From Saprospiraceae bacterium (GTDB lineage Bacteria; Bacteroidota; Bacteroidia; Chitinophagales; Saprospiraceae): a DNA stretch of 64,000 bases. The stretch spans positions 3,206 to 67,205 of the forward strand of contig JALWRC010000038.1 of assembly GCA_027080725.1 (NCBI GenBank), written 5' to 3'. The translations under genes were made by a program, and so were the position numbers. The notes under the pieces were generated by a model. The model had not been told where the DNA came from, searched no databases, and saw only the letters and a program-made list of their open reading frames with translations. Shown here one piece after another: positions 14,844-23,091 of the stretch; position 1 is the first letter of the stretch; the number at the start of each line of letters is the position of its first letter.

Positions 14844-15473
14844 TTAGTGTTTGCCCAGATAGTCAGCGATGCCTTCGTGTGTGGGTTTTAGGCTGTCTTT
14901 GCCGGGAGCCCAATCCGCAGGACACACCTCACCATGCTCTTCGACAAATTGCAATGCGTCCAATGTGCGCAATGCCTCGTCTACGCTGCGCCCCAATGGA
15001 AGATCATTGACTAACTGATGTCGGACCACTCCTTCCAGGTCGATAAGGAAGAGCCCTCTATACGCGATCAATTCTCCGATGGCTTCCAGCTCACCTTCTT
15101 CATTATAATCCCAGTCTCCGGCCAAAACATCGTAATTGGCCGCGATGGTCTTATTGGTATCAGCGACTACCGGATAGGTGATGCCTTTGATGCCTCCTTT
15201 GTTTTTGTCCATTTGCAGCCAAGCCCAGTGGGACTGCTCGGTGTCGGTTGAACATGCAATGACTTGCGTATTCCTTTTTTCAAATTCCTCCAACCTCGCT
15301 TGAAAAGCAAATAGCTCGGTGGGACAAACAAAAGTAAAATCCTTCGGATAGAAGAAAAGCACCACATACTTCTTGCCGATGTAATCTTCCAGTCTAAAAT
15401 TGTCTACAATGTCAACTCCATTGAGCACAGCTTGTGCTTTGAATAGCGGAGCTTTTTTGCCAGTAAGTACCAT
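14844..15473 (-). CDS. 2-Cys peroxiredoxin (AhpC/TSA family)
   Basis: 209 residues. The peroxidatic Cys50 lies in FYPKDFTFVCPTE and the resolving Cys184 in GEVCPADWAPG, as in typical 2-Cys AhpC/Prx1 enzymes that reduce hydrogen peroxide and alkyl hydroperoxides in the cytoplasm. ACSTDTEQSHWAW and GLFLIDLEG are also typical of the family. No AhpF or thioredoxin reductase is adjacent, so the reductant is probably a thioredoxin encoded elsewhere. Confidence 0.95.
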   Translation of the reverse strand: MVLTGKKAPLFKAQAVLNGVDIVDNFRLEDYIGKKYVVLFFYPKDFTFVCPTELFAFQARLEEFEKRNTQVIACSTDTEQSHWAWLQMDKNKGGIKGITYPVVADTNKTIAANYDVLAGDWDYNEEGELEAIGELIAYRGLFLIDLEGVVRHQLVNDLPLGRSVDEALRTLDALQFVEEHGEVCPADWAPGKDSLKPTHEGIADYLGKH

Positions 15474-15997: not shown

Positions 15998-16711
15998 TTA
16001 TATCCGTAGGTCTTCCACCTCTACCCCCGGATACTTCGTCTTATCAAAAGTAAAGAGGGTTTTCTTTAAGGAAGGGTTGGGGATTACTTTGTCGATGGAG
16101 AGAATGTATCTACTGCCATCCTTCGAAAAGCTTTTGAGTTCTTTGAGCGTTAACCTTGCCTTATCGACCAGCAACTTGACCTTAAAGAATTCGCTATCGA
16201 CATCTTTGGGTTTCATCTCTACCACCGTGAGCAATTGTTTGCCCTTATTGACGGTGCCGGCGATGCGCTGCATGGCACTTTGATCGAGTAATTGTTTGAG
16301 CATTGCATGAGGGGAATTGAAGTTCATCCCGTTGTCTGTGCTTCCTTCGTCAGCATAGGTCAAGACCACTCTATTATCTTCCGGGGTGTAAGTCCATATG
16401 GTTTTGCCATCGGAAATGACAGTCTGGTCCTTGGATTCCAATCGAAACATATTTTCTTTTTGGTAGATGGTCATATCCTGTTCTACGGCAGATTGTTCCG
16501 GCAGTTCGATAGTAAGATGAACATGAGATTCGATCGAAGAAATACCTTCGTATTTTGAAATCAGTTGGTTAATCAATGGTGTTGCATCGGATTGGGCGGT
16601 GCCGGAAAAAGAAAGAGCCGGTACACACAAAGTCAAAACAGCTAACAGTGAGCGGAATCGCATGATTCGGCCGGATGAAAATAGGGCGGATGTGAGGAGT
16701 ATTTTAATCAT
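15998..16711 (-). CDS. LolA-like outer membrane lipoprotein carrier family protein
   Basis: About 220-237 residues. The start is uncertain: an ATG at 16711 gives MIKILLTSALF, while the ATG at 16663 opens directly into a clean signal peptide (MRFRSLLAVLTLCVPALSFSGTAQ). Body features of the LolA fold are ESHVHLTIELPEQSAVEQDMTIYQKENMFRLE, DGKTIWTYTPEDNRVVL and ILSIDKVIPNPSLKKTLFTFD. LolA shuttles lipoproteins across the periplasm, but Bacteroidota have several paralogues of less clear role. It lies upstream of nothing obviously linked. Confidence 0.75.
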   Translation of the reverse strand: MIKILLTSALFSSGRIMRFRSLLAVLTLCVPALSFSGTAQSDATPLINQLISKYEGISSIESHVHLTIELPEQSAVEQDMTIYQKENMFRLESKDQTVISDGKTIWTYTPEDNRVVLTYADEGSTDNGMNFNSPHAMLKQLLDQSAMQRIAGTVNKGKQLLTVVEMKPKDVDSEFFKVKLLVDKARLTLKELKSFSKDGSRYILSIDKVIPNPSLKKTLFTFDKTKYPGVEVEDLRI

Positions 16712-16883
16712 ATTATACGATTTCAAAGTGGGATAATATACGTTATGCCGGGCTGCTATATGCTATAGAGTTTTAAGCCGGTATTGTACCATTTCATACC
16801 TAATAACGCTATAAGTGACAAAAAGTGTGTTAAAGCGACGTTAAACCTGTCCTTCAAATCTGTAATAACAAGTGAAGGAAGAA

Positions 16884-17198
16884 TTACTCATCCGTTGGTT
16901 TAGTGGGGTCCGTAAAATAAAAACCTTCAGTATCTCCCATCACGCGCCAATCCACCTTCATCCCAAGAACGAAGATGGCTTCTCCCGGGGTCAGTAGTAT
17001 AGATATGTCTCCGATTTGTTTCCTAATATCCTCCTCGCGTACAGTATCAAACCCAATGCTGTACTGGACAGGTCCGCGCCCTCCCCCTTTTTTTACACCG
17101 ATTCTCAATGCATAGTCTTCCGGTACCTCGCATTGAGCACGCAGTTCTTTGATTTTTTGAATGGCTTTGTCTGTCAATATTAGTTCTTGCATAGTCAA
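16884..17198 (-). CDS. HesB/IscA-like (A-type carrier fold) protein lacking the cluster cysteines
   Basis: 104 residues with the A-type carrier layout: ILTDKAIQKIKEL, LRIGVKKGGGRG, a hydrophobic core and GFYFTDPTKPTDE at the end. Canonical IscA/ErpA/SufA proteins have a Cys in GGGCSG and a C-terminal CGC. Here the first is GGGRGP and the tail has no Cys; the only Cys in the protein is in the helix RAQCEVPED. Classical Fe-S cluster binding is therefore not expected. It starts 2 bases after the glyA stop on the same strand, so the two are co-transcribed. Its job is unknown; a structural or one-carbon-related role is conceivable. Confidence 0.75.
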   Translation of the reverse strand: MTMQELILTDKAIQKIKELRAQCEVPEDYALRIGVKKGGGRGPVQYSIGFDTVREEDIRKQIGDISILLTPGEAIFVLGMKVDWRVMGDTEGFYFTDPTKPTDE

Positions 17199-17200
17199 AA

Positions 17201-18493
17201 TTATAAAGTGGTTGGGGTAAGGGGTGTTTTATCATATAGCGGGAAAGACTCCGTAAGCCGATGTACTTCATCCCGAATATTGGCGAGGTGTCTATCATTG
17301 TCCGCATGAGTGATAATCTCATTTATCCATTGTGCTACAAGAATACTCTCCTTCTCTTTAAACCCACGTGTGGTAACTGCAGCAGTACCGATGCGAATAC
17401 CGGAAGTCACAAAAGGGCTGGTGGTATCAAATGGAACCATATTTTTATTGGTAGTGATATCCGCTTTTGCCAATGCGGCTTCAGCCTCTTTGCCCGTTAT
17501 GTTTTTGTTTCTCAGGTCGAGGAGTAGTAAGTGATTATCCGTACCTCCGGAGACAATATTGTAACCGAGGTCTTTCAATGTGCTCGCCATGGCTTGAGCA
17601 TTCTTGATGACTTGCTGTCCATAAGCTTTGAATTCAGGGGTCATGGCTTCTGCAAAGGCAATGGCCTTGGCCGCGATCACATGCTCCAACGGGCCACCCT
17701 GCATCCCGGGGAATACGCCGCTATTCAGAATGGATGACATTTTGATAGGGTTGCCTTTTTTGGTCGTGCGTCCCCAGGGATTCTCAAAATCCTTGCCCAT
17801 CATGATAATACCACCCCGCGGACCTCTTAGCGTCTTATGTGTCGTCGATGTGACAATGTGCACATGATGAAGGGGATTTTTTAGCCATCCGCCGGCAATA
17901 AGCCCTGCGGGATGAGCGATATCGGCCATGAGCAGGGCCCCAACTTCATCGGCAATTTGACGAAAGCCCTCGTAATCCCATTCCCGTGAGTACGCGGAAG
18001 CACCGCATATAATGAGCTGCGGTTTATGCGTTAATGCTTTTTGCCGGACCTCTTCCATATCGATACAACCCGTATCCGGGTGCACCCCATAAGAAGCGAT
18101 TTGATAAGTCTTTCCGGAGTAGTTGACAGGCGAACCGTGTGTGAGATGTCCTCCATGAGAGAGGTCAAATCCCAATATCTTATCACCCGGTTTGAGCGTA
18201 GCCAAGTATACCGCAGCATTGGCTTGCGAGCCCGAATGCGGCTGCACATTGGCGTATTCTGCACCGAAAAGTGCCTTGAGTCTATCGATGGCGAGCTGCT
18301 CGACTTTATCCACTACTTCACATCCACCGTAATACCTCTTTCGAGGGTATCCTTCGGCATATTTATTGGTGAGGCAGGAGCCCATGGCACGCATGACATT
18401 GGAGCTGGTAAAATTCTCAGAAGCGATTAGCTCTATACCGGATTGCTGCCTGAGAAGTTCATCTTGGATGAGATTAAAAATGACATCTTCCAT
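17201..18493 (-). CDS. glyA: Serine hydroxymethyltransferase
   Basis: 430 residues, normal length. PLP-binding Lys220 in [15 protein letters not shown], the folate-site sequence [11 protein letters not shown] near the N-terminus, [14 protein letters not shown] and GSQANAAVY. It converts serine and tetrahydrofolate into glycine and 5,10-methylene-tetrahydrofolate in the cytoplasm. It is followed at 2 bases by the cysteine-less A-type carrier homologue. There is a clear gap upstream, with the terminator of the next gene at 18572-18598. Confidence 0.98.
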
Positions 18494-18571
18494 GTGGTAG
18501 ATTGATTAGTAAAGTTATAGTTAGTGGATGCAAATTCATTTGCACAATTGAATCAAGGCCCAAAAATAAAA

Positions 18572-18598
18572 AAACCCCGCAGTATACGTGCGGGGTTT
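18572..18598 (-). terminator. Rho-independent terminator of the 23-residue repeat protein gene
   Basis: AAACCCCGCA (18572-18581) pairs with TGCGGGGTTT (18589-18598) around a 7-base loop. On the minus strand the hairpin is followed by a T-rich run (GGGGTTTTTTTATTTTT). It lies about 25 bases after the stop codon at 18624. Confidence 0.9.
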
Positions 18599-18623
18599 CA
18601 ATGATTTATTGCGAAGGTGTCAT

Positions 18624-20141
18624 CTATTTGATACCTAAAGCTTTCAATGTTTCATAATCAAGGCTACCTACAGGAAGTTTGTTGTCTTTTTGAAACTTAA
18701 CCAAAGCGTTTTTGGTGTCTCTTCCGAATACACCGTCTACTCCGGCAGCTCCAATATCATACCCTCTGTCTTTTAGCGCTTGCTGAACTCTGTTGATCAA
18801 GTCATTGGTCATATCACTCTTACAAACGACTTCTCTCCACTCTGTAAATCCTCCCGGTTTAACCATCTGTCTTTTTGTGATGGTCACAAATTCAGCAGGA
18901 ACTTCTTGAGTAGTGGTGGTGGCAGGGGAAGCCAATTTCTGGAAAGAGCGAGTCACATACTTAGCAGCGACCGCATTTTCTGTCGTTTGAGCATCTTTGA
19001 CGAGTTTCTTGTACTTTCTGGTAGTGTACTTGGCAGGAATTTCTTTTACGATGGTAGAAGCATCCGCCTTAAGCTTTGTGTAAGTTCTGGTCTCGTATTT
19101 GGCCGGAACTTCGATGGTTTCGGTAGTCGCCGGCTTCACGAGTTTTTGGAAAGAACGAGTAACATACTTAGCAGGAATCTTCGTCTCGGTTGTTGTAGCA
19201 GGAGATACAAGCTTTTGGTAAGAGCGGGTCTCGTACTTAGCCGGAATATCAACCACCTCTACCGTAGCGGGTTTAGCGACTTTCTTGTAAGTGCGGGTTT
19301 CATACTTGGCCGGAACATCTACTGTTCGGATACAGTCTTCTCCAACAGCTGTCCAACCTTCACCACATGCCTTAAGAGTCTTTTTAGTGATGGTTTTATA
19401 AACTGCGGGTACTTCTACCAAACACCATACGTTACAATCTTTGGGATTGTCAGACACACAATTTTCCGGGCGGTATTGCTTTACCCACTTCTGAGCGGCG
19501 GGTTTGATAAGCATTTGCTCCGTAGTGGTCTCATATCCGGCAGGACGTCTTTCGATTTTGGTTCCTGCAGCTTTAGCGAGAACTTGCTCCGTCACTGTCT
19601 CAAACTGGGCTGGGATAACTTTGTATCGCTTGCTCGCTTCAACCGCTAATACTTGCTCCGTTACTGTCTCCCATTTTGCAGGAACTTTCTTGAGCACGGT
19701 ATAACCCTCTTTGTCGAGGACTTGCTCGGTTACCGTTTCAAATTGTGCAGGAATTACCTTCAAGATAGTATAAGCGGGCTTTACCAATACTTGCTCGGTT
19801 ACTTTTTCAAAGCTGGCTGGAACGATACTGAGATCCTTTCCGGCTTCCTTAGCCAAAACTTGCTCTGTTACCGTTTCGAATTGCGCAGAACTGGCAGAGA
19901 TGGTTTTGTAAGCTTCTTTCGCCAAAACTTGCTCTGTAACAGTCTCCCACTTGGCAGGAACCACAGATACGCGTTGTGACGCCGCACGTGTTTGAATTTG
20001 TTCGGTTACCGTCTCCCATTGTTCAGGGATTAGACATTTGGCATAGCATTTACCCACTTCCGTGTTGGAGGTAGGCTGTGCATAACCTACGTAAGCGAGC
20101 ATCATGAAAGCTAAAGTCCATAAAAAGTTCATCTTTCTCAT
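18624..20141 (-). CDS. Secreted 23-residue repeat protein with C-terminal peptidoglycan-binding domain
   Basis: 505 residues. Signal peptide (MRKMNFLWTLAFMMLAYVGYAQ), then eight 23-residue repeats (39-222) of the form PAxFETVTEQVLAKEA. A Cys-rich spacer follows (223-244). Eight repeats of a second subtype (245-437) have the form PAKYETRTYKKLVKPA, the first expanded to 32 residues and containing two Cys. The C-terminal domain (about 438-505) is a PG_binding_1 fold: INRVQQALKDRGYDIGAAGVDGVFGRDT, NALVKFQKDN. It is predicted to be periplasmic or surface and to contact the cell wall. Function unknown. It has its own terminator (18572) and a 66-base gap to the HD gene upstream. Confidence 0.85.
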   Translation of the reverse strand: MRKMNFLWTLAFMMLAYVGYAQPTSNTEVGKCYAKCLIPEQWETVTEQIQTRAASQRVSVVPAKWETVTEQVLAKEAYKTISASSAQFETVTEQVLAKEAGKDLSIVPASFEKVTEQVLVKPAYTILKVIPAQFETVTEQVLDKEGYTVLKKVPAKWETVTEQVLAVEASKRYKVIPAQFETVTEQVLAKAAGTKIERRPAGYETTTEQMLIKPAAQKWVKQYRPENCVSDNPKDCNVWCLVEVPAVYKTITKKTLKACGEGWTAVGEDCIRTVDVPAKYETRTYKKVAKPATVEVVDIPAKYETRSYQKLVSPATTTETKIPAKYVTRSFQKLVKPATTETIEVPAKYETRTYTKLKADASTIVKEIPAKYTTRKYKKLVKDAQTTENAVAAKYVTRSFQKLASPATTTTQEVPAEFVTITKRQMVKPGGFTEWREVVCKSDMTNDLINRVQQALKDRGYDIGAAGVDGVFGRDTKNALVKFQKDNKLPVGSLDYETLKALGIK

Positions 20142-20207: not shown

Positions 20208-21434
20208 TTACAAGCGCAAAAGTAACCTTTTTTTTGGATAGCAAATGAATTTTTTTTCAATTATTTTTTGCCGCATTTCAAATTCGCTAACTTCTGCAAA
20301 ACGCTTTAAATCTCCTTTCTTGGACAAAATTATGATTTCGTCTTTGACATTGGATTGGTAAATTTGGTTCCTTTCGATTCCTTGCCATATTAGATCTTTC
20401 AAAACCATACTATTAGTAAAACCAGCCTTATTGAACTTTTGTAAAACATCCTCCTTGGTATCCTGCGGGTTAAACTCCAGTCTAAATAATTGACGGTTGT
20501 TCAGCCCGAATGCCAATAGTCTAAGCAACTCATCTTCCGCTTCGGTGGCTTGTTTTATTTCAAACTCAATATCAATGTCATCTAATAAAGCATAACAAGA
20601 TAGTATTTTGTATTGTTTCTCAAACTCTGATTCTTTTGCATTTACTTTTTCATTTATGAAATAGTTGAGCGCAGGGTGATGGATGGAATACTGGCCGGTG
20701 ATTACAAGTTGTTTGAGCCGCTCCCAAAAATGTTGGAGCATGAGTTCGGCGGCGAGGGAAGTTTTATGAAGATACACTTGCCAATACATCAACCGTCTGG
20801 CGACTAAAAATTTTTCGATGGAGTAAATGCCTTTTTCTTCGATGACCAATTGATTATCGACTACATTTAGCATTTTTATGATTCTGTCGTGTCCGATGAC
20901 TCCTTCGGCTACACCGGTGTAAAAGCTGTCCCGCTTGAGGTAGTCCATCCTGTCCAAATCCACTTGACCCGAGATGAGTTGATACAGAAAAGTCTTCGGG
21001 TACCGGTTGGTAAAAATAGATATTGCCAGGTCCATACTCCCCGGCCAAATCGTGTTAAATGCCTTCATAAACATCAGCGATATCTGCTCGTGGTGAATCG
21101 GGACTATCCGACTCTCCAAAGCGTGGGAAAAGGGACCGTGGCCGATATCATGTAGCAATATCGCCAAGTAAAAGCCCTCTTCTTCCTCCGGCGCAATCTC
21201 CACCCCTTTCTGTTTTAATCCACTTATCGCCTGCATGGCCAAATGCAATGCCCCCAACAAATGATGAAAGCGGGTGTGCAAAGCGCCGGGATAAACCATA
21301 TGGGTCATGCCGGTCTGCTTGATTCTTCGCAACCGCTGAAACCAGGGATGATCGATGACGTCCAGTAGTATTCCCTTGGGAATCGTTATGAAGCCATAGA
21401 TGGGGTCGTTAAATATTTTGTAATTCGTTTTCAA
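20208..21434 (-). CDS. HD domain phosphohydrolase (SAMHD1/dGTPase-like)
   Basis: 408 residues. The metal site of the HD superfamily is complete: His57 in HTRFHHLLGALHLA, His95-Asp96 in ILLHDIGHGPFSH, and a distal Asp in DLDRMDYLKRDSF. The sequence and length match the YdhJ/SAMHD1-like family common in Bacteroidota. Members hydrolyse dNTPs or related phosphate esters; the actual substrate is unknown. The gene is divergent from porX, with about 90 bases between the starts. Confidence 0.88.
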   Translation of the reverse strand: MKTNYKIFNDPIYGFITIPKGILLDVIDHPWFQRLRRIKQTGMTHMVYPGALHTRFHHLLGALHLAMQAISGLKQKGVEIAPEEEEGFYLAILLHDIGHGPFSHALESRIVPIHHEQISLMFMKAFNTIWPGSMDLAISIFTNRYPKTFLYQLISGQVDLDRMDYLKRDSFYTGVAEGVIGHDRIIKMLNVVDNQLVIEEKGIYSIEKFLVARRLMYWQVYLHKTSLAAELMLQHFWERLKQLVITGQYSIHHPALNYFINEKVNAKESEFEKQYKILSCYALLDDIDIEFEIKQATEAEDELLRLLAFGLNNRQLFRLEFNPQDTKEDVLQKFNKAGFTNSMVLKDLIWQGIERNQIYQSNVKDEIIILSKKGDLKRFAEVSEFEMRQKIIEKKFICYPKKRLLLRL

Positions 21435-21522: not shown

Positions 21523-23091
21523 ATGAATAATATAAAAATCCTATGGGCAGATGACGAGATTGATATGCTTAAGCCGCAACTCTTCTTTTTACAAAAGAAG
21601 GGCTACGAGGTGGTTACCGTTACCAATGGATATGATGCCTTGGAGGAAATCAACACAGATGATACCATAGATATAGTATTTCTGGATGAATCTATGCCGG
21701 GATTGAGTGGATTGGAAACCCTCGAGAAGATTAAGACCATTCGCCCGCATTTGCATATCGTCATGATTACCAAAAATGAAGCGGAAAACCTGATGGAAGA
21801 GGCCATCGGCTCCCGCATCGATGATTACCTGATTAAACCGGTAAACCCCAATCAGATTCTTCTTACGCTCAAAAAGACCATTGAGAACAAGAGAATCGTA
21901 GGCAATAAAACCGTGCAGGATTATCAACAGAGCTTCACTGCCATATCTATGGACATCAACTCCGGACCGGATTACAAAGGCTGGGTGGATATATACAAGC
22001 GTCTGGTCAGTTGGGAATTAAAAATGGAGTCTTCCTTTACGGAGGATATGCAGGCCATCTTATCTATGCAAAAGTCAGAGGCAAATAGCGAATTTAGTCG
22101 CTATGTCGAGCGCAATTATCTCTCCTGGATGAAGGACGACGTTCCCGAAGATGGTCCGGATACCCTCTCTCACAATCTGATGAGAAATAAAGTGTTTACT
22201 AAGATGAATCACGATATCCCTACCGTGGTGCTGTTATTGGATAATCTGCGATACGACCAGTGGAAGGCGCTCGAACCCATCTTCAGAGAGGTGTTCAAGG
22301 TGAAGGAGGAGAACTTTTTTAGCAGTATATTGCCCACTTCCACCCAATACAGTCGTAATGCCATCTTTGCAGGGATGACACCCGCTGAAATCGCCCGGCA
22401 TTATCCGGAGTATTGGAAGCATGACTTCGAAGAGGGAGGAAAGAATAACTTCGAGGACAAATTGCTGGATATACAAATTAAGCGCACGTTCCGAAAGCCT
22501 ATTTCCCATAAATACGTCAAGATAACTAACCTTCAAAAAGCCAAAGAACTGGAGATGAATATCCTGAATTATCTCGAGTTTGATATGACCGTTATCGTGT
22601 ACAATTTCATAGATATGCTTTCGCACGCCCGGACAGAAATGGAAGTCATTAAGGAGCTGGCCGGAGACGAAAAGGCATTCAGGTCCTTGACGCGCTCATG
22701 GTTTCTGCATTCTCCACTTTGGTCTGCTTTGAAGAAGGTCGCACAGAGAAAAATTCAGCTTTTTGTGCTCACCGACCATGGCACCATACGGGTTACCAAG
22801 CCATCCAAGGTCGTGGGGGATAAGAACACCACTACTAATTTGCGATACAAGATGGGACGGAATCTGAATTTCGAAAAGAAAGATGTGTTTGCCATCGACG
22901 ACCCGATCAAGGGCGGGCTTCCCGCACCTCATATGAGTGCCAAATACATTTTTGCAAAAGAAGATAAGTATTTCCTCTACCCCAATAACTACAATTACTA
23001 CAACAACTACTTCAAAAACACTTTTCAACACGGAGGAATATCCTTGGAAGAAATGCTCTGTCCGGTGGTCGAGTTGGAAAGTAAGGGGTAG
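21523..23091 (+). CDS. porX: PorX-type response regulator with PglZ domain
   Basis: 522 residues. N-terminal receiver domain (1-120) with the acidic pair Asp10/Asp11, phospho-acceptor Asp55 (IVFLDESMPG), Thr83 and Lys105. It is followed by a helical linker and a PglZ/alkaline-phosphatase-superfamily domain (about 220-515, with DNLRYDQW, PTSTQYSRNAIFAGM and VLTDHGTIR). This architecture is PorX, which with the histidine kinase PorY and sigma factor SigP controls T9SS genes. In Porphyromonas the PglZ part is a phosphodiesterase acting on cyclic oligonucleotides. It lies alone. The T9SS sorting tails at 51463-52872 and 52921-58413 show that the system is in use. Confidence 0.93.
   Translation: MNNIKILWADDEIDMLKPQLFFLQKKGYEVVTVTNGYDALEEINTDDTIDIVFLDESMPGLSGLETLEKIKTIRPHLHIVMITKNEAENLMEEAIGSRIDDYLIKPVNPNQILLTLKKTIENKRIVGNKTVQDYQQSFTAISMDINSGPDYKGWVDIYKRLVSWELKMESSFTEDMQAILSMQKSEANSEFSRYVERNYLSWMKDDVPEDGPDTLSHNLMRNKVFTKMNHDIPTVVLLLDNLRYDQWKALEPIFREVFKVKEENFFSSILPTSTQYSRNAIFAGMTPAEIARHYPEYWKHDFEEGGKNNFEDKLLDIQIKRTFRKPISHKYVKITNLQKAKELEMNILNYLEFDMTVIVYNFIDMLSHARTEMEVIKELAGDEKAFRSLTRSWFLHSPLWSALKKVAQRKIQLFVLTDHGTIRVTKPSKVVGDKNTTTNLRYKMGRNLNFEKKDVFAIDDPIKGGLPAPHMSAKYIFAKEDKYFLYPNNYNYYNNYFKNTFQHGGISLEEMLCPVVELESKG

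Follow-up and report, generated by a model that had tools for sequence, protein, structure and literature searches.

What becomes of an A-type iron-sulfur (Fe-S) carrier when every cysteine of its cluster site is gone? The question is raised by the gene at 16884-17198 of a 64,000-nucleotide stretch of a Saprospiraceae bacterium (GCA_027080725.1, contig JALWRC010000038.1, positions 3,206 to 67,205), the whole of which we call the window. The gene encodes a small protein related to HesB/IscA and follows glyA, which encodes serine hydroxymethyltransferase. An earlier note had described the product as an A-type homologue without any cluster cysteine and had proposed a changed function connected with one-carbon metabolism. 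Our analysis confirmed the loss of the cluster site and found it in three genomes of two genera. The explanation that we favour, tentatively, is that a descendant of a carrier no longer carries clusters and has become a HesB-fold protein-binding module, most likely one that regulates or stabilises an enzyme, for which GlyA is the first candidate.

The first cluster site of the protein reads GGGRGP where GGGCSG is expected, and its C-terminus, FTDPTKPTDE, stops short of the CxCG motif. As had been claimed, the protein lacks all three cluster cysteines (those of GGxCSG and CxCG); the sole cysteine, C23, lies away from any cluster position. The product is 104 amino acids long if translation starts at TTG 17198 and 102 if it starts at ATG 17192, the start that aligns with that of a homologue from a second genus (G208, below). 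In hmmscan searches, it scored 43.2 bits with TIGR00049 (cut-off 58.8) and 23.0 bits with PF01521 (cut-off 26.3). Both scores are below the curated cut-offs, but its kinship to HesB/IscA is real. An AlphaFold2 model (mean predicted local distance difference test score 88.8), built from an input alignment of 40 rows of which 37 were cysteine-bearing carriers, matched IscA (1r94) with a Z of 14.3 and a root-mean-square deviation (rmsd) of 1.7 over 96 residues, and SufA with a Z of 11.5; matches past rank 10 were weak and to other proteins (Z <=3.4). The protein is therefore predicted to have the IscA fold, and the earlier statement that the fold signature is intact agrees with the model, with the family scores remaining below their cut-offs.

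Two close homologues were identified, one in a genus-mate of the window's genome (G185, JALSTN010000033.1; the window's genome is G000) and one in a second Saprospiraceae genus (G208, WFXH01000087.1). We refer to the three proteins as the trio. The G185 protein has no cysteine anywhere, and the G208 protein has one near the first site, displaced by one position, and no CxC. The cluster site is thus gone in all three of these glyA-linked homologues, two of which lack a cysteine near the first site and none of which has CxC. Both cysteine motifs were present in 64 of the 69 A-type rows that we collected, the other five being the trio, L031, which was cut by trimming, and L107, which was cut by the end of its locus. 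The trio also has residues in common that the aligned rows of the carrier group termed paralogue 1 below do not show: the K of GMK[IV][DE]W (K81) and the E and DPTK of EGFxFxDPTK (E91 and D97-K100).

Across 398 Saprospiraceae genomes, a profile built from the trio scored its own members at 175.6-178 bits and the next homologue at 97.3 bits, and 377 of the genomes contained some match at E<=0.001. At E<=1e-27, the profile picked out G000 and G208 from a set of 396 genomes belonging to the order, a draw that evidently did not include G185. A pattern-based scan of GTDB (84,980 species), the reach of which is limited to close relatives, returned only two named records when queried with the alignment, JALSTN010000033.1 and WFXH01000087.1, and a contig scan of the same type queried with the single protein found no relative. 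The possibility that the trait extends across Saprospiria, which the earlier note had raised, did not hold, as three of the 398 Saprospiraceae genomes are set apart and the 64 other complete rows keep their cysteines. A mutation of a single genome or an assembly error is ruled out, because three genomes of two genera are alike, with G185 and G208 sharing both the site loss and the glyA-hesB-lolA order.

To place the trio among Saprospiraceae carriers, we constructed a phylogenetic tree of 68 rows, including L031 in its trimmed form and excluding the fragment L107 (3-359). The trio came out as a single clade (100/98) on the paralogue 1 side of the tree, and paralogue 2 formed a separate clade (100/100). 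Identity to the window protein was 32-39% for 27 aligned Saprospiraceae rows of paralogue 1 and 25% for a paralogue 1 row of another family; nine rows of paralogue 2 gave 18-26%. An origin from paralogue 2 is not favoured, since this paralogue occupies one side of a 100/100 branch, subject to the caveats that the bootstrap had not settled and that paralogue 1 is not one clade. The branches of the trio are very long: the stem measures 5.1 changes per column and the tips 2.0-3.3, where the median for end branches is 0.24. Because of these long branches, the unsettled bootstrap and the joining of G185 with G208 (97/48), contrary to the GlyA tree, which joins G185 with G000 (99/97), the exact place of the trio is unsure.

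The gene is tightly coupled to glyA in all three genomes. In the window, the distance from the glyA stop to the HesB-like start is 2 nucleotides for the TTG and 8 for the ATG, so the earlier placement of the start 2 bases past the stop applies to the former codon and not to the latter; in the homologues, the start as annotated lies inside glyA, with an overlap of 8 nucleotides in G185 and 7 in G208. No HesB-like gene followed glyA at any of the eight loci of other genera in which the 3' end of glyA was visible (L088-L094, L096), which makes the coupling a derived state. In G296, a genome of the same genus as G208, no HesB-like gene was seen, and since the contig end cuts its glyA, this genome is uninformative on the linkage. 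The order PglZ, HD, peptidoglycan-binding protein, glyA, hesB-like gene, lolA and peroxiredoxin is common to the three genomes, except that a peptidoglycan-binding gene between HD and glyA was not found in the G208 locus, and the conservation of the block runs from PglZ to a glycosyltransferase.

Four further genomes of the order, each from another family, have a cysteine-bearing paralogue 2 gene tail-to-tail with glyA (L003, 1501-1821; L024, 651-962; L026, 1501-1815; L028, 1350-1664, with a gap of ~1 kb to glyA). This arrangement differs from that of the window gene in both orientation and paralogue.

We also investigated whether these genomes contain a normal carrier. TIGR00049 matches over the cut-off were found in 145 of 149 genomes of the order; G000 fell below the cut-off and three genomes had no match. 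In G000, which is listed as 100% complete, the HesB-like gene is the sole match for PF01521 at E<=1 and for TIGR00049 at E<=10. All four genomes belonging to the two genera (G000, G185, G208 and G296; completeness 94-100%) lack an A-type carrier over the cut-off, and it is thus unlikely that a carrier is merely missing from the assembly. The carrier check covered 14 genomes, 11 of them chosen for having no match to the trio profile, and its count of 0 of 14 is accordingly not a rate. Absence in one genome proves little, because G294 and G399 have no match, yet their genus-mates G099 and G234 have two each. No A-type match was found in any of five genomes of genus g149 (G216, G301, G356, G395 and G423), and G195 has two chance-level matches alone (E 0.24 and 0.4), neither credible. 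These six genomes are 92-98% complete. In the GlyA tree, g149 and G195 form one clade (99/97) and the genomes of the two genera another (98/95), and the mutual relation of the two clades is not resolved.

Other Fe-S machinery is retained in G000. Contig C21 encodes SufB, SufC, SufD, SufS, SufE and a SufT-like protein, with lipoyl synthase nearby; SufC and SufS were named from general Pfam domains and operon position. Two Nfu genes lie away from C21, one of them adjoining Mrp/ApbC. IscU was not found in G000. Loss of the ISC system was rejected as a simple cause of carrier loss, because IscU was not found in 14 of 20 genomes, four of which (G017, G057, G086 and G204) keep two A-type matches. 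According to one report (PMC2682760), [4Fe-4S] enzymes such as IspG and IspH need A-type carriers for maturation in aerobic Escherichia coli, and many Bacteroidetes/Chlorobi lack such carriers. The lineage studied here, which has Suf, Nfu and lipoyl synthase, seems to manage with the cysteine-less descendant alone.

A-type relatives without cluster cysteines and with other roles are already known, namely DsrR and a domain of NfuA, a point that the earlier note did not mention. PdhI/YneR of Bacillus subtilis is not known to have these cysteines either. The model of the window protein matched DsrR of Allochromatium vinosum (2k4z) with a Z of 13.4, and the trio profile matched DsrR, which has no cysteine at the first site, at E 0.00046. 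Both are stand-alone proteins of the IscA fold without cluster cysteines. DsrR lies among dsr sulfur-oxidation genes, mainly in Pseudomonadota, and the literature on it describes a role in the regulation of sulfur oxidation and reports that it binds neither iron nor an Fe-S cluster. The window gene, in contrast, has glyA and lolA as neighbours and descends from a Saprospiraceae carrier. PdhI/YneR, matched as chain 9a4q_B of an integrative model (Z 8.8, rmsd 2.7 over 87 residues, 14% identity), is likewise a small protein of this fold, and it acts on a metabolic enzyme. Its partner, however, is the E1 component of pyruvate dehydrogenase, which it reportedly inhibits with the active site partly covered (PMC10090944). 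The NfuA domain is fused to a cluster-binding Nfu, whereas the window protein is single-domain and Nfu is encoded elsewhere. IscA, SufA and ErpA share the fold, and the window protein differs from them in lacking the three cluster cysteines and in scoring below the family cut-offs. Two putative Fe-S biosynthesis proteins of Lactobacillus, 2qgo and 2p2e, were weaker fold matches (Z 7.5 and 6.8; identity 17% and 11%). Our literature search on HesB with glyA, cysteine-less HesB and Saprospiraceae carriers, in which subscription journals were thinly covered, found no description of the gene. Nor did this search turn up any cysteine-less relative whose translation is coupled to that of glyA and beside which no other A-type homologue was found in the genome.

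A changed function is likely, because the site loss is confirmed in all three glyA-linked homologues and is not a mutation of one genome; the link to one-carbon metabolism is more limited, consisting of one gene order within a larger block that arose in a single event. In the reading that we prefer, Saprospiraceae paralogue 1 would have given rise to a descendant unable to hold a [2Fe-2S] or [4Fe-4S] cluster, which would retain the HesB fold and act as a protein-binding module, most probably as a regulator or stabiliser of an enzyme. We infer the absence of cluster binding, the binding of proteins as the function and GlyA as the partner. Protein binding is the simplest reading by analogy, as it is the reported mode of action of both PdhI and the NfuA domain. 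Two observations put the co-translated GlyA first among candidate partners: the tight coupling of the genes in 3/3 genomes and the lack of a HesB-like gene after glyA at the eight loci of other genera. A bolder version, which we consider rather unlikely, is that the last A-type carrier of the two genera lost its site, left Fe-S assembly, came to be translated in partnership with glyA and now controls GlyA as PdhI/YneR controls pyruvate dehydrogenase. If true, this would be a HesB-fold regulator of one-carbon metabolism recent enough for its carrier ancestor to be traced. As close relatives keep the carrier, the conversion of a carrier to another role is traceable here, and the case raises the question of which roles other than cluster holding the HesB fold can have, with GlyA as a named candidate partner.

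Several observations weigh against this preferred reading. Slower change would be expected of a regulator that binds a conserved enzyme, yet between G000 and G185 the HesB-like protein is 37% identical, the lowest of nine block genes, against 83% for GlyA. Because the arrangement arose once and was inherited inside a larger block, the glyA linkage is one piece of evidence and not three, and the GlyA of other Saprospiraceae works without the trio protein. The conflict between the protein and GlyA trees counts on the same side, as does the makeup of the model alignment, in which the predominance of cysteine-bearing carriers favours a carrier fold. Between G000 and G208, the HesB-like proteins are 41% identical; lower values, 27-40%, were obtained for three further genes of the block. 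The LolA-like gene (15998-16726) likewise changes fast: its product is 50% identical within the genus, where GlyA, PglZ, peroxiredoxin and the glycosyltransferase reach 83-89%.

The rapid change raises the possibility that the gene is a decaying relic of a lost carrier with little or no function, as the very long branches, the low identity within the genus and the existence of another Saprospiraceae clade without a credible A-type homologue might suggest. We regard this as unlikely. Open frame, length (102-104 amino acids), coupled start and codon-position pattern are retained across the trio at 37-46% identity, in genomes whose GlyA differs by 33-34% across genera. In each pairwise comparison within the trio, variation is greatest at third codon positions and smallest at second ones, and for G000-G185 the nonsynonymous rate (dN) is 0.64 against a synonymous rate (dS) of ~1.7, a rough value near saturation; these patterns indicate a translated gene under some constraint, and the derived residues shared by the trio also speak against decay. 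An alternative that keeps the protein within Fe-S assembly would make it a stand-alone equivalent of the degenerate A-type domain of NfuA, delivering Nfu-bound clusters to clients. In NfuA, this domain is reported to be devoid of the conserved cysteines and to help the protein interact with apo-proteins (PMC10301553), and G000 offers a fitting setting in its two Nfu proteins (one by Mrp), its SufBCDSE and SufT-like proteins, lipoyl synthase as a client and the lack of a carrier over the cut-off. We nevertheless consider it doubtful: the window protein is not fused to Nfu and had no match to NfuA models at E<=1, nor did the G185 and G208 proteins at E<=0.01, whereas two normal carriers that we scanned gave weak matches (E 2e-4 and 3e-4) to one of the models, in its N-terminal part. 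Such a module would also be dispensable in g149 (5/5) and G195, and the coupling to glyA would be left unexplained.

It is improbable, finally, that the protein is still an Fe-S carrier that binds iron or a cluster through Asp, Glu or ligands of a partner. It is the sole A-type homologue found in G000, its fold is kept, and the trio shares some invariant acidic residues (E27, D28, D51, D57, E91 and D97). However, cysteine-bearing carriers also have D51 and D57 without exception, so these two are not new ligands. The trio has no invariant His or Cys, and the reported lack of iron and Fe-S binding in DsrR points the same way.

Table. Positions of the HesB-like gene and neighbouring features in the window.
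Feature	Position	Strand	Basis and remarks
HesB/IscA-fold gene without cluster cysteines	16884..17198	minus	Profile matches, alignment, predicted model
glyA, serine hydroxymethyltransferase	17201..18493	minus	PF00464 E 1.5e-165; NF000586 626 bits; directly upstream of HesB-like gene
LolA-like gene	15998..16726	minus	PF03548 E 1.8e-9; next downstream in 3/3 genomes
Peroxiredoxin (AhpC/TSA, 1-Cys Prx C-terminal domain)	14844..15473	minus	PF00578; next in conserved block
Terminator-like hairpin after peptidoglycan-binding repeat gene	18571..18599	minus	4 such sites in region against 3.2 expected from shuffles; weak
HD-domain protein	20208..21434	minus	Upstream member of conserved block
Response regulator receiver + PglZ domain	21523..23091	plus	Outer member of conserved block

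The hairpin upstream of glyA weakly suggests that glyA begins its own transcription unit. The gene beyond it (18624-20141, minus) encodes 505 amino acids, mostly short repeats (WETVTEQV-like, then YETRTYxKL-like) with a terminal peptidoglycan-binding domain, and its product is 88% identical to the genus-mate copy. The receiver and PglZ protein at the outer end of the block shows 86% and 71% identity in the two relatives.
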